Shown piece after piece: positions 32,638 to 36,890 of a DNA stretch of 42,354 bases. The translations under genes and the position numbers were made by a program. The notes under the pieces were generated by a model. The model did no database searches. It was not told where the DNA came from and saw nothing but the letters and a program-made list of their open reading frames with translations. Source of the stretch: Chloroflexota bacterium. Its GTDB lineage: Bacteria; Chloroflexota; Anaerolineae; Aggregatilineales; Phototrophicaceae. Position 1 is the first letter of the stretch; every line of letters starts with the position of its first letter. The DNA lies in NCBI GenBank assembly GCA_013388735.1, contig JACAES010000082.1, forward strand, positions 1 to 42,354. Direction: 5' to 3'.

Positions 32638-33660
32638 CTATTCACCGACCGGCGCGTTCTGCGCCAGGAATTTCAGCAGGTCGGCATTGAAGGCGTCGGC
32701 GGTTTCCTCCTGCGGCAGATGGCCGGTGTTGGGGTAGGTGACGTAGGTGGCCTGCGGCAGCAGTTCGCGCAGGCGCTCCCCCACGCTGACCGGCACCCAG
32801 GTGTCGTTCTGCCCCCAGGCGATCATCACCGGCGCGGTGAAGGCAGCGATCTGTTCGGCGGTGATGGGATCGTTCGGGAACGCGCCGCCCTTGAGCTGGT
32901 CGAGCAGGGCTTCATCCCAGCCAACGACCCGAAGCTGGCGGCTGTAACCTTCGGCAGCCTCCGGCGTCATAAAGGCCGGGTCGTAATAAGCCGACTTGAG
33001 AATATTGGCGGCGAAATCCGGTTTGACGAAGGCGCGAATCCCGATCTGCGCCCAGCGAGCGAAAGGCGGAAAATCCAGCAGCGTGCCGACAACCGGCGGC
33101 AGCCCCAGCGCCCCCGTAACGCGCCCGCCGCCCTGACCGTCCGGGGGCGGGTCGTCGGTGGGGCGCAGCGCCGCCGACACGAACACCAGCGCCTTGACGC
33201 GCTCCGGGTAATGAGCGGCGAAATAACCGATCACGCCGCCGCCCTGGCTCTGCCCGACCAGGACGGCGCTTTCGAGGCCGAGTTCGTCCATCACGCGGGC
33301 GGTGAAGTCGGCCAGCGCCGACGGGCTGTAGGGGATGTTCGCGCCGGTTTTGGTGGACAGCCCGTAAGGCGGGCGGTCAAAGGCGATGGCGCGGTAGCCG
33401 GCTTCGGCCAGCACGTCCTGGTTAAAACGCCAGGTGAAGGTCGAAGCGCCCCAGCCGTGCAGCAGCAGCACCGGCGTGCCGTCTTCTGGGCCGCGCGCCA
33501 GGACGTAAGTCGAAAGGCCGTCTACGGTGATGAAAAAGCCGTCTGGCTCGGCCAGCGAGGCCGCCTCCACGCCGACCGGCGGCAGGGGCAGCAGCAGCGG
33601 GCCGATCAACAGCACCAGCAGGATAAAAAAGAGCAGCCGGATGATTCGCCGTTTTCGCAT
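32638..33660 (-). CDS. Membrane-anchored or exported alpha/beta hydrolase
   Basis: About 340 residues with an uncleaved anchor or signal sequence (MRKRRIIRLLFFILLVLLIG). The alpha/beta hydrolase fold shows the oxyanion motif HGWGAST, the nucleophile elbow GQSQGGG, the acid in WGQNDTW and the catalytic His in NTGHLPQEE. Haloalkane dehalogenases, epoxide hydrolases and esterases share this pattern, so the substrate is open. The frame is open for 122 codons further upstream inside the photolyase region, but those residues are an Arg-rich shadow. The start at 33660 has GGGGA 11 nt ahead. A strong terminator follows the gene. Confidence 0.88.
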   Translation of the reverse strand: MRKRRIIRLLFFILLVLLIGPLLLPLPPVGVEAASLAEPDGFFITVDGLSTYVLARGPEDGTPVLLLHGWGASTFTWRFNQDVLAEAGYRAIAFDRPPYGLSTKTGANIPYSPSALADFTARVMDELGLESAVLVGQSQGGGVIGYFAAHYPERVKALVFVSAALRPTDDPPPDGQGGGRVTGALGLPPVVGTLLDFPPFARWAQIGIRAFVKPDFAANILKSAYYDPAFMTPEAAEGYSRQLRVVGWDEALLDQLKGGAFPNDPITAEQIAAFTAPVMIAWGQNDTWVPVSVGERLRELLPQATYVTYPNTGHLPQEETADAFNADLLKFLAQNAPVGE

Positions 33661-33718: not shown

Positions 33719-35155
33719 TTACGATGCGTCGCCCTGATTTTGCCGCGCCGCGCCGAACGCCGCCAGCGCCCGCTCCCGCGCGAAAGCGTGATCTGCAATC
33801 GGCGGCGGGTAATCACGCGGCGGGCTGTCCATCGTCCAGGGCGCATGGATGAACGGCAGCGGCACGCCGCGCAGTTCCGGCAGCCAGCGCCGGATATAAG
33901 CGCCGTCGGGGTCGAACTTCTGCGACTGCGACACGGGGTTAAACACGCGAAAGTACGGCTGCGCATCCGTCCCGGTGCCGGCAGTCCACTGCCAGCCGCC
34001 GTTATTCTGCGCCGGGTCGCCGTCAATCAGCCATTGCATGAAAAAGCGTTCGCCTGCCTGCCAGTTGATGAGCAGGTCTTTTGTCAGAAAGCTGGCGGCG
34101 ATCATGCGGGCGCGGTTGGGCATCCAGCCCATGTGCTGAAGCTGGCGCATGGCGGCGTCCACCACCGGATAACCCGTCCGGCCTTCTGTCCAGGCTTGCA
34201 GATCGTTCGGCTCATCCCGCCATTGTAGGACGTCATATTCGGGGCGGAAGTTGCCGTCCAGGGCATGAGGATGAAAGTGCAGGATGTGGGCGTAAAATTC
34301 CCGCCAGATCAACTCACCGATGTACTGCTCCACCGACCGGCGTGCTTCCGGCGTGCCGGCCTCGCGGTAGGCTTCGCGCGCCGCCCAGTAAACCTGCCGG
34401 GGCGAGATCAGGCCGAAGCGAAAATAGGGCGACAGGAACGACCAGCCGCCGCGCGTGTCGTCGTCCGGGTCGGAAGCCAGCCGGTCGCGCCCGGTCTGAT
34501 AGTTGTGGATGCGCCGCGCCAGGAAATCATACAGGCGGCGTTGGGCGGCTTCTTCGCCGGCTTCGGGCGTTTTAAAGTTGCCGTCAAAACCGAGCGCCGC
34601 CAGAGTCGGCAGATCGTCAAACGGCAGGGACAGGCCGCCTGCCGGGATAAAACAGTCGCCCGGCTGACCCACCGGCAGCGTTTTGTTCAGCGTCAGCCAC
34701 TTCTTTTTGAAGGGCGTGAAGACGGCAAAGGGCGTCTGGTCGGGTTTGAGGACAGCGCCGGGCGGGTGCAGCAGGCCATCATCAAAAACATAAACCGGGA
34801 TGTTCAGCATCCGTTTGATGTCTTCGTCTCGGCGCAAGGCGTAGGGCGTGTAGTCCCGGTTGAGGTAAACCGCCGCCGCGCCGGTCTGTGCGGCCAGTTC
34901 CGCCAGCACGCGGCGCGGGCTGCCCTGCCGGATCAGCAGGCGCGCCCCCTGCCGGCGCAGGCGAGCGTCCAGCGCCGCCAGCGTTTTTATCAGCCACGCC
35001 AGGCGCGGCACGCCGAAGTAGCGTCCCCGCAAAATAGCCGGATCGAAGATGAACACCGGGATAACCGGCGCGCCCGTTCGCGCGGCGGCGTCCAGCGCCA
35101 GATTATCGGTCAGCCGCAGATCACGGCGAAACCAGTGAATGACCGGTGCGGCCAT
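33719..35155 (-). CDS. phrB: Deoxyribodipyrimidine photolyase
   Basis: FAD-dependent light-driven enzyme of 478 residues that reverses cyclobutane pyrimidine dimers. The N-terminal antenna domain begins MAAPVIHWFRRDLRLTDNLAL. The catalytic domain shows GYPVVDAAMRQL, the GWMPNRARMIAASFLTKDLL region, and QNNGGWQWTAGTGTDAQPYF with FNPVSQSQKFDPDG, the usual FAD and DNA-binding signatures of class I photolyases. The ATG at 35155 has GGAG 8 nt ahead. It lies 35 nt behind the desaturase on the same strand, so it should be transcribed from the light-type promoter at 36764-36793. A frame open further upstream is not part of the gene. Confidence 0.95.
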   Translation of the reverse strand: MAAPVIHWFRRDLRLTDNLALDAAARTGAPVIPVFIFDPAILRGRYFGVPRLAWLIKTLAALDARLRRQGARLLIRQGSPRRVLAELAAQTGAAAVYLNRDYTPYALRRDEDIKRMLNIPVYVFDDGLLHPPGAVLKPDQTPFAVFTPFKKKWLTLNKTLPVGQPGDCFIPAGGLSLPFDDLPTLAALGFDGNFKTPEAGEEAAQRRLYDFLARRIHNYQTGRDRLASDPDDDTRGGWSFLSPYFRFGLISPRQVYWAAREAYREAGTPEARRSVEQYIGELIWREFYAHILHFHPHALDGNFRPEYDVLQWRDEPNDLQAWTEGRTGYPVVDAAMRQLQHMGWMPNRARMIAASFLTKDLLINWQAGERFFMQWLIDGDPAQNNGGWQWTAGTGTDAQPYFRVFNPVSQSQKFDPDGAYIRRWLPELRGVPLPFIHAPWTMDSPPRDYPPPIADHAFARERALAAFGAARQNQGDAS

Positions 35156-35190: not shown

Positions 35191-36741
35191 TCAGAAGCTG
35201 GACTCGGCGCGCGGGCGCAGCGGGAAAATCCGCCGGTCGCGTCTCATCGGCAGTGCGCGTTCCACGTCCGCCGCCACGCGCAGCGCCCCCAGCGTGACAC
35301 CCGCGGTAGACTGGCCGGGGAAAATCGAGTCGCCCACCAGACGCAGATTGCGGATTCCGGTGCGCGGGCCGCGCGCGGCCAACAGGGACGTTTGCGGCTG
35401 GCCGCCGACCATGCCCAGGTGACGGTCGGTATAAAACTGGTACGTCACGGGGCTGCCCGGCAGCAGCAGACGGACGCTCGACCGGAAGCCGGGCAGGGCG
35501 TTTTCGATGGCGCTTAACAAACGTTCGGCGTATTCGTCCTTGCGGGCGCTGTAGGCGGCGGGGTCGCGTTCCAGCGCGTCCCACCAGGGCTGCACCGCCG
35601 TATGCGTGGTGATGGTGGCGGCGCGGTGTCCGGCAGGGGCGCGGGTCTCGTCCCAGGTGGGCGACAGCGAAATGAAGATACTGCGCCCTTCGCCCAGCGG
35701 GCCATCCATGTCGGTGATGATCTGGTGATGATCGGGCCAGTCCGCCGGTATCGAAGCAGCGTCCAGGCCGACGTGCAGCGCGAATGCGCCCCAACCGGGA
35801 CGGCGGCGGCCCACCTCACGGCGCAGGTGGCGCGGGCTGGAGTCGCCCAGCAGCGCGTCCAGCGACCAGGGCGTGAGGTTCGCTACCACAAAATCGGCGG
35901 GCAGCCATTGGTCGCGTCCGGCGCGCCGGCCTTCACGAACGGTGAGGCCGGTCACACGCCCGCCTGCAACGCGAATTGTCGTCACCCGGCGGCGGTACAG
36001 GATTTGCCCGCCCAACGCCTTTATCCGGCTGACCAGCGTTTCCGCCAGCCCGCCGATGCCGCCCTGGACGTGATAAACGCCCTGGCGCGCCAGATCGAGG
36101 GCGGTGGCGCTGTACAGCGCATTGGCATGGCGGGAAGTGGTCTGCGCGGAGATGAGAAGCTGCGCGTCAATAAAACGGGTAAATGCTGCATCCTGGGCCA
36201 GCCCGTGCTGCTGCAACCAGTGGTTAGTTGACCGAAATGCCATCGGGAGGAGAAGCAAATCTTGGGGTAGGTTCAACAGACCAACACGGGCCAGCTTAAG
36301 GATGTCTTGATGGTCGGTCGGGGGCCAGGGCAAACCCTGCGCCGATAGCGACCAACCCAGATCAGCAATTCGGGACTGCGCCTTCCAGAAGCCCTCGCTG
36401 GCCGGGAAGTTGCGCAGCACATCGGCATAATCCTGCGTCAGGGCGATTTTTCGATCCGGCAGATGCACGACCCAGGCGGGGTCGTGGCGGCGCACCGGCC
36501 ACGTTATGTCCAGCCGCTCGCCGGCGATGTGGTGCGGACCGTCCGGCTGAAAGCCGCCGGCGACAGTCGCTCCGGCATCGAAGCGATAGCCCTGATGGGT
36601 GAAGGTTCCGGCACAGCCGCCGGGATAGGCCTGCGCTTCCAGCACTGTGACCCGGTAACCGGCCTGCGCCAACAGGGCGGCGGTTGTCAGCCCACCGATG
36701 CCGGCGCCGATAACGATAACCTGAACGGAAGAAACTGCCAT
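35191..36741 (-). CDS. FAD-dependent CrtI/CrtD-family desaturase or isomerase
   Basis: A 516-residue oxidoreductase of the phytoene desaturase superfamily. The dinucleotide-binding loop VIGAGIGGLTTAALL is at the N-terminus, followed by the YPGGCAGTFTHQGYRFDAGAT block. The C-terminal block LRLVGDSIFPGQSTAGVTLGALRVA is the family end signature. It is closer to CrtD/CrtH-like members than to classical CrtI in the parts I can compare by eye, but the reaction is not certain. GAGG lies 5 nt before the start. Its promoter is a near-perfect TTGACA-N18-TATAAT overlapped by 11-bp repeats. No other carotenoid gene is in the window. Confidence 0.85.
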   Translation of the reverse strand: MAVSSVQVIVIGAGIGGLTTAALLAQAGYRVTVLEAQAYPGGCAGTFTHQGYRFDAGATVAGGFQPDGPHHIAGERLDITWPVRRHDPAWVVHLPDRKIALTQDYADVLRNFPASEGFWKAQSRIADLGWSLSAQGLPWPPTDHQDILKLARVGLLNLPQDLLLLPMAFRSTNHWLQQHGLAQDAAFTRFIDAQLLISAQTTSRHANALYSATALDLARQGVYHVQGGIGGLAETLVSRIKALGGQILYRRRVTTIRVAGGRVTGLTVREGRRAGRDQWLPADFVVANLTPWSLDALLGDSSPRHLRREVGRRRPGWGAFALHVGLDAASIPADWPDHHQIITDMDGPLGEGRSIFISLSPTWDETRAPAGHRAATITTHTAVQPWWDALERDPAAYSARKDEYAERLLSAIENALPGFRSSVRLLLPGSPVTYQFYTDRHLGMVGGQPQTSLLAARGPRTGIRNLRLVGDSIFPGQSTAGVTLGALRVAADVERALPMRRDRRIFPLRPRAESSF

Positions 36742-36763
36742 AACGCCTCATTACGATAGTTTC

Positions 36764-36793
36764 ATTATAGGTAGATTGCCAAATATTTGTCAA
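36764..36793 (-). promoter_or_regulatory. Sigma70-type promoter of the desaturase-photolyase operon
   Basis: On the minus strand TTGACA (36793-36788) is followed after 18 nt by TATAAT (36769-36764). Both boxes match consensus exactly. The expected start point is near 36757, leaving a leader of about 15 nt with GAGG before the ATG at 36741. Confidence 0.75.
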
Positions 36794-36819
36794 TATATTG
36801 ACGAGGTACTGTCAAATCC
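36776..36819. promoter_or_regulatory. Four 11-bp direct repeats overlapping the promoter; CarH/LitR-like operator
   Basis: On the plus strand, TTGCCAAATAT (36776), TTGTCAATATA (36787), TTGACGAGGTA (36798) and CTGTCAAATCC (36809) follow each other in exact 11-bp steps; the third is degenerate. The array covers the -35 box. GTCAATATATTGAC (36789-36802) is also a perfect 14-bp palindrome. B12-dependent MerR regulators such as CarH bind 11-bp direct repeats overlapping -35 boxes of carotenoid and photolyase genes; assignment to that class is inference, since no regulator gene is in the window. Confidence 0.55.
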
Positions 36820-36890
36820 TTTAACCGTTTTCTCAAGTGCAGACGGCGCGTTTCGACCCGCCGTTAAGCAACGTTCCCCATGCTTCTGCG

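Follow-up and report, generated by a model that had tools for sequence, protein, structure and literature searches.

What controls the carotenoid desaturase-photolyase operon of this Chloroflexota bacterium, and are the short repeats that lie over its promoter the operator of a regulator that the genome itself encodes? The window, that is the whole 42,354-nt stretch of DNA that was analysed, is contig C111 of a 4.27-Mb genome in 190 contigs that is 94% complete. Its minus strand carries an FAD-dependent carotenoid desaturase-like gene of the CrtD/CrtI family (35191..36741; Pfam and NCBIfam) and a DNA photolyase gene (33719..35155; PF00875 and PF03441). The desaturase comes closest to the NCBIfam model TIGR02733 (CrtD), with 318.8 bits where the cut-off is 549.7, and the exact substrate is therefore left unassigned. 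An alpha/beta hydrolase gene (32638..33543, minus strand) is a possible further member of the operon, judged by its strand alone and separated by a 175-bp gap; the weak terminator-like matches at 33537-33555 are of a kind no commoner than in shuffled sequence. The photolyase adjoins the desaturase (within 1.5 kb) in 5 of 11 loci of the window's genus, which makes the desaturase the steadier target of the two.

The minus-strand promoter reads TTGACA-N18-TATAAT, with the -35 box at 36793-36788 and the -10 box at 36769-36764, and agrees with the consensus at 12 of 12 positions, as the first-pass annotation had claimed; the desaturase ATG (36741) lies 3' of the -10 box. The same annotation placed four repeats in exact 11-bp steps here (36776, 36787, 36798 and 36809 on the plus strand), and these correspond to cores within 36777-36815. 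Read on the minus strand, unit 1 (36815-36810, core TTGACA) matches TnnACA in full, unit 2 (36804-36799, TCGTCA, A to T) is degenerate, unit 3 (36793-36788, TTGACA) is at the same time the -35 box, and unit 4 (36782-36777, TTGGCA, A to G) lies inside the promoter spacer. The repeat formerly counted as second and said to contain the -35 box (36787) is unit 3, and the one called degenerate (36798) is unit 2; both descriptions hold.

The unit of CarH operators, as defined by experiment, is nnnnTnnACAn; some units may be degenerate, and the -35 box TTGACA of Myxococcus sits inside a repeat (PMC9304148). Two of the four units in the window match TnnACA in full and the other two carry one change each, giving 14 of 16 positions against four tandem units of this consensus. 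The promoter combines tandem 11-bp TnnACA units with overlap of the -35 box, two marks of a CarH-type operator, in which either the -35 or the -10 box may be overlapped. A further claim, that the motif departs from the core used in Thermus and that the regulator would have a specificity of its own, was wrong, since TTGACA fits TnnACA and the related loci L055 and L110 carry TGTACA. We consider it likely, by analogy with the known systems, that the repeats are a CarH/LitR-type operator, the predicted site at which the genome's own MerR-B12 protein would repress the desaturase-photolyase operon in a dark/light switch. The earlier reading as a CarH/LitR operator is hence retained, and is strengthened by the regulator, the conservation, the adjacency and the crt-associated repeats described below; its proposal of a separate specificity is dropped. 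Two of the three conditions that it named as refuting, a genome lacking a MerR-B12 regulator and repeats absent from orthologous promoters, were checked and do not hold.

A search of 61 genomes with the desaturase gave matches in 57 at E <= 0.001, from which 30 loci (L050-L079) were used; weaker matches and fragments, e.g. in G002, G036, G046 and G057, lie outside this set. Eleven of the 30 loci belong to the window's genus (17 genomes), and in all 11 promoters the letters have diverged while the 11-bp phase is kept, as expected if the repeats are conserved in orthologous promoters. Mean identity at lag 11 was 0.455, compared with 0.267 in shuffles (z = 9.8), in a region hand-anchored on TTGAC (TTGTAC in L055) and across a set that includes close kin (L051/L052 and L059/L061). 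Lag 22 gave z = 5.7 and every other lag from 4 to 22 stayed within 3.1, and an upstream segment taken as a control had an identity of 0.312, compared with the 0.455 of the operator.

Scored against the published CarH consensus, all 11 genus loci reach 12-15 of 16 upstream of the gene. In ten of them (scores 12-15) the repeats share the register of the -35 TTGAC box, and in L055 they are one base off; the score of 12 in L052 is shared by another register there, and other step lengths score 10-12 in the same promoters, tying with step 11 in L056. The background consisted of 160-nt windows (L044, L047, L048 and L049 served for these alone), of which 17 of 4572 score at least 12, or 8 of 346 when AT-rich ones are taken. 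Three promoters from another family (L075-L077) score 12, 13 and 11 and the remaining 16 loci 7-10; in one of these low scorers, L079 (G039), the repeats stand where the operon begins (L110) and not before the desaturase.

A 57-position profile was built from 14 operators, 11 from the genus (the window's own included) and three from another family, and searched in the 17 genus genomes. Among the 150 of 274 own-genome candidates that were scored, the desaturase promoter has E 1.8e-8 and the next place 0.053. In G002 the profile found a further site, which was not among the 14 operators, at 43 bp from the desaturase fragment (E 2.7e-6).

The stretch at 10932-10948 of contig C150 (L020, TTGACAAATATTTTGCA) is a near copy of units 3-4; it is palindromic and lies at the start of a gene which we take, from its translation, to encode a ROK-like regulator, and it was set aside as unrelated, being probably the operator of the ROK-like protein itself. 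A three-unit match at 22965-22992 of contig C78, before a gene presumably for an aspartate kinase-like protein (again read from the translation), has a profile E of 0.154 and is regarded as unproven. An operator-like site at L215:1501-1542 (contig C44 of G011, E 5.2e-4) occurs in a genome with the regulator and without the desaturase orthologue.

The first-pass annotation had supposed that a MerR-B12 regulator is encoded elsewhere in the genome, and one was found. PF02310 matches eight places and MerR_1 five; the two coincide in a single protein, encoded on contig C21 (L006:1426-2424, minus strand), and the other MerR_1 matches (L009, L011, L012, L013) coincide with no B12-binding match. Its closest named relatives are records labelled as Chloroflexi, Anaerolineae and Caldilineales MAGs. 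Relatives occur in 36 of the 61 genomes at E <= 0.001, and a full-length one in 14 of the 17 genus genomes, the exceptions being G004, G007 and G016.

By the printed criteria, RxWERRY, Wx9EH and the B12 motif (PMC9304148), the protein gives a mixed picture. The MerR helix-turn-helix (PF13411, 44.9 bits) contains RxWERRY, and R37-Y43 is invariant in 16 of 16 aligned proteins; Wx9EH, in the four-helix bundle, is intact (W166, E176, H177). These two features place the protein with CarH rather than CarA. The classic B12 motif, D/ExHx2G/P-x41-SxT/V-x22-27-GG, is changed in two of its three parts: ExH and GG are kept, with Ser at the G/P position and V-x-M at SxT/V. Both changes characterise the clade, which comprises the own protein and the relatives L080-L099, as Ser replaces Gly in ExHxxG and V/I-x-M replaces SxT/V in all 16 proteins of alignment A1. 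Outside this alignment, L135 and L137 keep Gly, L130 has Asn, and more distant relatives (<40% identity) mostly keep G and S. The light signature GxxW, EH, GxxH and GxxxP, reported from SignatureFinder (PMC11796333), is present in three of its four parts, with ExxH here in place of GxxH; the G is present in 4 of the 16 aligned proteins. Histidine at the place of His132, the upper ligand of the light state in Thermus (H167 in the own protein), is likewise found in 4 of 16, the own one included, and the residue otherwise varies between L, E, K, F, R and S.

The regulator stays below the threshold of two models, with 22.8 bits for PF02310 (cut-off 32.1) and 164.9 bits for NF052513, the CarH equivalog (cut-off 400). 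The structure model (mean pLDDT 83.4, pTM 0.66) found Thermus CarH chains as its best Foldseek matches (5c8a_A, TM 0.87 by target length, rmsd 2.2), and a whole CarH-like B12-binding fold is thus predicted. Unlike Thermus CarH, to which it is identical at 92 of 221 aligned residues and, within the DNA-binding part, at 28 of 52, the protein has Ser in ExHxxG and V-x-M for SxT/V, and its clade mostly lacks the His132 equivalent; unlike CarA, in which the Trp of Wx9EH is lost and the B12 motif kept (PMC9304148), it keeps the Trp and has an altered B12 motif. We therefore describe it as a CarH-like variant rather than file it as a proven CarH, with B12 and light control putative. With two parts of the motif altered, the involvement of B12 is less secure than the first-pass annotation had assumed.

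These substitutions speak for a second reading, in which the operator is bound by the MerR-B12 protein but this has ceased to sense light through adenosylcobalamin, the repressor being independent of B12 or controlled by a partner, in the manner of CarA or class II LitR. The Ser and V/I-x-M residues throughout the clade, together with the scarcity of His at the His132 place, count in its favour; class II LitR, described as being without a working B12 domain, answers to a LOV protein (PMC9758184), and pigment formation in Herpetosiphon is reported as constitutive despite a CarH-like gene (PMC6210107). Against this stand the predicted intact B12-binding fold and the retention of the Wx9EH Trp in 15 of 16 aligned proteins and of both EH and the axial His in all 16, CarA being a protein that lost the Trp and kept the B12 motif (PMC9304148). 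We regard this second reading as rather unlikely, and continue to prefer a CarH-type repressor.

The variation at the His132 place bears on how such a repressor might work. For Thermus CarH, an H132A variant is reported to be mostly tetrameric after illumination, and a contrary earlier report is cited in the same source (PMC10442372). We suggest tentatively that these proteins form a separate Chloroflexota CarH clade in which the operators, the cap residues of Wx9EH and the axial His were kept; DNA binding may be switched off by light chemistry that proceeds without the bis-His state of Thermus, a corrinoid with a different lower part may be used, or light sensing may have been lost and the regulon retained.

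As to the supply of the cofactor, no cobalamin adenosyltransferase was found in the own genome with either PF01923 or PF02572. PF01923 is present in all 16 other genus genomes, which suggests that the absence is probably an assembly gap. Locus L001 of the own genome encodes what we take, from the translations, to be a B12-binding protein beside a MeaB-like GTPase. Such a pair usually goes with an adenosylcobalamin-dependent methylmalonyl-CoA mutase.

The repeats and the regulator gene are physically associated in other families. Forty-six upstream regions from 48 regulator loci were scored (L084 and L143 were too short), of which 39 are distinct, L124-L128, L132 and L133 being counted as duplicates of other rows. 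Eleven of the 39 score at least 13, each with a simulation P <= 0.010, and none of these comes from the 13 genus loci. Eight of the 11 sites point away from the regulator, and three (L102, L103 and L107) precede the regulator gene itself. In L096/L110 and L095/L111 the site faces an epimerase-desaturase-Ldh-like-photolyase operon; L099/L112 has a similar divergent operon in which the desaturase was identified, and L130, from a Caldilineales MAG, has an epimerase-desaturase-Ldh-like operon with no photolyase seen. The regulator of L098/L113 is divergent from phytoene synthase and CrtI-like genes, and the sites of L097 and L131 are likewise directed away from the regulator. In L110, L111, L113 and L130 the repeats in the intergenic region shared with the divergent regulator reach 13-15 of 16; L114 and L131 were covered by the repeat scoring alone. 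In G047 (L094/L115) the site faces a solute-binding-protein/ABC permease pair and not a pigment operon; here the repeats TGTACA, TAGTCA and TGTACA lie at L115:7134-7172, between the MerR-B12 gene and the divergent ABC pair. In G009, G014 and G015 regulator and desaturase are 20-24 kb apart on one contig.

Across genomes, repeats before the desaturase (score at least 11) occur, among the 30 desaturase genomes, in 13 of 16 with a full-length regulator (E below 1e-40) and in 1 of 14 without one (Fisher 5.6e-5, uncorrected for kinship and with a cut-off chosen after the scores were seen). The regulator-bearing genomes without them are G054, G059 and G039. G007 (93% complete, 740 contigs) has the repeats at its desaturase (contig C605, L056) and gave no MerR-B12 match, and in this genome both crtI-like promoters that were examined are without repeats.

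A scan upstream of crt genes, which the first-pass annotation had recommended, revealed a second candidate operator in the own genome. On contig C54 the units TGGACA, TGTACA and AATACA follow one another in 11-bp steps (L116:6469-6496) between a TATAAT and the crtI start of a crtI-phytoene synthase operon supported by Pfam; they were read by eye, the scoring being tied with another place. Among 21 CrtI-like starts examined (the own and 20 others, G001 and G004 not being covered), 9 of the 14 of the first type have three tandem units of 10-12 out of 12 and five do not (G007, G011, G012, G014 and G016), and the seven of the second type score 8 or less. Three units stand before crtI in 9 of the 12 regulator-bearing genus genomes examined and in neither of the two without the regulator; G011, G012 and G014 bear the regulator and are without repeats before crtI. 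Probably the same MerR-B12 protein also controls the crtI-phytoene synthase operon of C54.

Upstream of the regulator gene itself the scan gave a different outcome. The best four-unit score before the own gene is 10 of 16 (simulation P 0.40), which is no strong site, and by eye only two units are present there (TGAACA and TGAAAA, 11-bp step). The 13 genus upstream regions score 9-12, none reaching 13 and five at most 10, and four of them (L083, L086, L087 and L091, all scoring 12) have a simulation P < 0.05. Autoregulation is thus not clearly seen in the genus on these scores, and we do not claim it for the own regulator. A weak profile site at L227:1501-1537 (contig C31 of G001, E 0.075), 44 bp from the MerR-B12 gene, is compatible with possible autoregulation in that genome.

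Because the units are partly symmetrical, the site could also be read as a palindrome for a repressor of another kind, such as one of the TetR or MarR family. The site contains GTCAATATATTGAC, a perfect 14-bp inverted repeat, and inverted symmetry in the 11 promoters exceeds that of shuffled sequences, 0 of 300 of which attain it; the CarA site of Myxococcus was described as inverted repeats (PMC9304148). Among the five best symmetry centres, however, four form a series with a spacing of 5.5 bp (26.0, 31.5, 37.0 and 42.5), which is to be expected of a partly self-complementary unit recurring every 11 bp rather than of a single dyad, and in other families it is a MerR-B12 gene that accompanies such repeats. 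A TetR- or MarR-like repressor is for these reasons very unlikely, and the tandem reading as a MerR-B12 site is maintained.

Taken in the window alone, the repeats are far less striking. The lag-11 self-similarity of the site was matched by 73 of 5000 shuffles, a number that rose to 1237 once all lags between 4 and 22 were admitted, and as evidence this self-similarity is unimpressive, weak to moderate in strength. The score of 14 of 16 is the best for four units at step 11 on either strand of the window, followed by 12 for the one-unit shifts of the site itself and for four other places, and none of 60 simulated windows and none of 4000 simulated promoters of 140 bp attained it. Elsewhere in the window, however, 14 is attained with steps of 12 and 17 bp as well, so the score on its own does not decide the matter; as read from the compared promoters, it is the cross-genome conservation that is decisive for the repeats being real. 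That they arose by chance from a strong sigma-70 promoter with its TTGACA box in AT-rich surroundings would suit the modest figures for the window and the scores at other steps, but is largely contradicted by a phase kept in 11 of 11 diverged promoters and, beside the regulator, in other families, and is extremely improbable.

The repeats, with their phase and conservation, and the link between them and the regulator gene are observed; from these we infer the following model of binding, repression and response to B12 and light. The MerR-B12 protein of contig C21 would occupy the four adjacent 11-bp units from a single side of the helix. In doing so it would cover the -35 box and keep RNA polymerase from initiating at the promoter of the desaturase-photolyase operon. 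By analogy with CarH, the oligomer loaded with adenosylcobalamin would be the dark repressor; light would break the cobalt-carbon bond, the oligomer would dissociate and transcription would begin. Derepression would provide, at the time of need, an enzyme that modifies carotenoids and another that repairs DNA with the help of light.

Compared with described systems, the arrangement resembles that of CarH in Thermus thermophilus, Bacillus megaterium and the Myxococcales in its tandem 11-bp TnnACA units, intact and degenerate ones mixed, over a -35 TTGACA. Carotenoid genes as targets and a protein composed of MerR, a four-helix B12-binding_2 and a Rossmann B12-binding domain, with RxWERRY and Wx9EH, are further points in common. 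With CarA of Myxococcus xanthus it shares the DNA-binding motif and the operator, which CarA has in common with its CarH paralogue (PMC9304148). Class II LitR of Pseudomonas (PplR/PmlR) is similar in being a light regulator of the MerR type that governs genes for photolyase, short-chain dehydrogenase and FAD-oxidoreductase, but is described as having no recognisable C-terminal B12-binding domain (PMC9758184), whereas one is predicted here (PF02310, at the score given above). Within the Chloroflexota, Herpetosiphon llansteffanense has a MerR-family (CarH) gene beside the carotenoid gene phytoene synthase; carotenogenesis is reported there as constitutive, with no operator described in the passages concerned (PMC6210107). 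In the open-licence library searched we found no paper linking CarH with Anaerolineae. The site looks functional, and the system is best explained, from the sequences compared here, as one of a known kind, a CarH-type operator whose regulator the genome itself encodes, in which the regulator belongs to an unusual clade.

A regulon of the CarH type, complete with its operator, its regulator and the operons it targets, would thereby be extended to a Chloroflexota group whose closest named records are MAGs. Nature offers in this clade a test of the residues that are essential to CarH, given that 12 of 16 of its aligned proteins are without His at the His132 place, yet the operators persist. Joint control of carotenoid and photolyase genes is predicted for these Chloroflexota, which, by analogy with CarH, probably switch on their protection against sunlight with a B12-type sensor.
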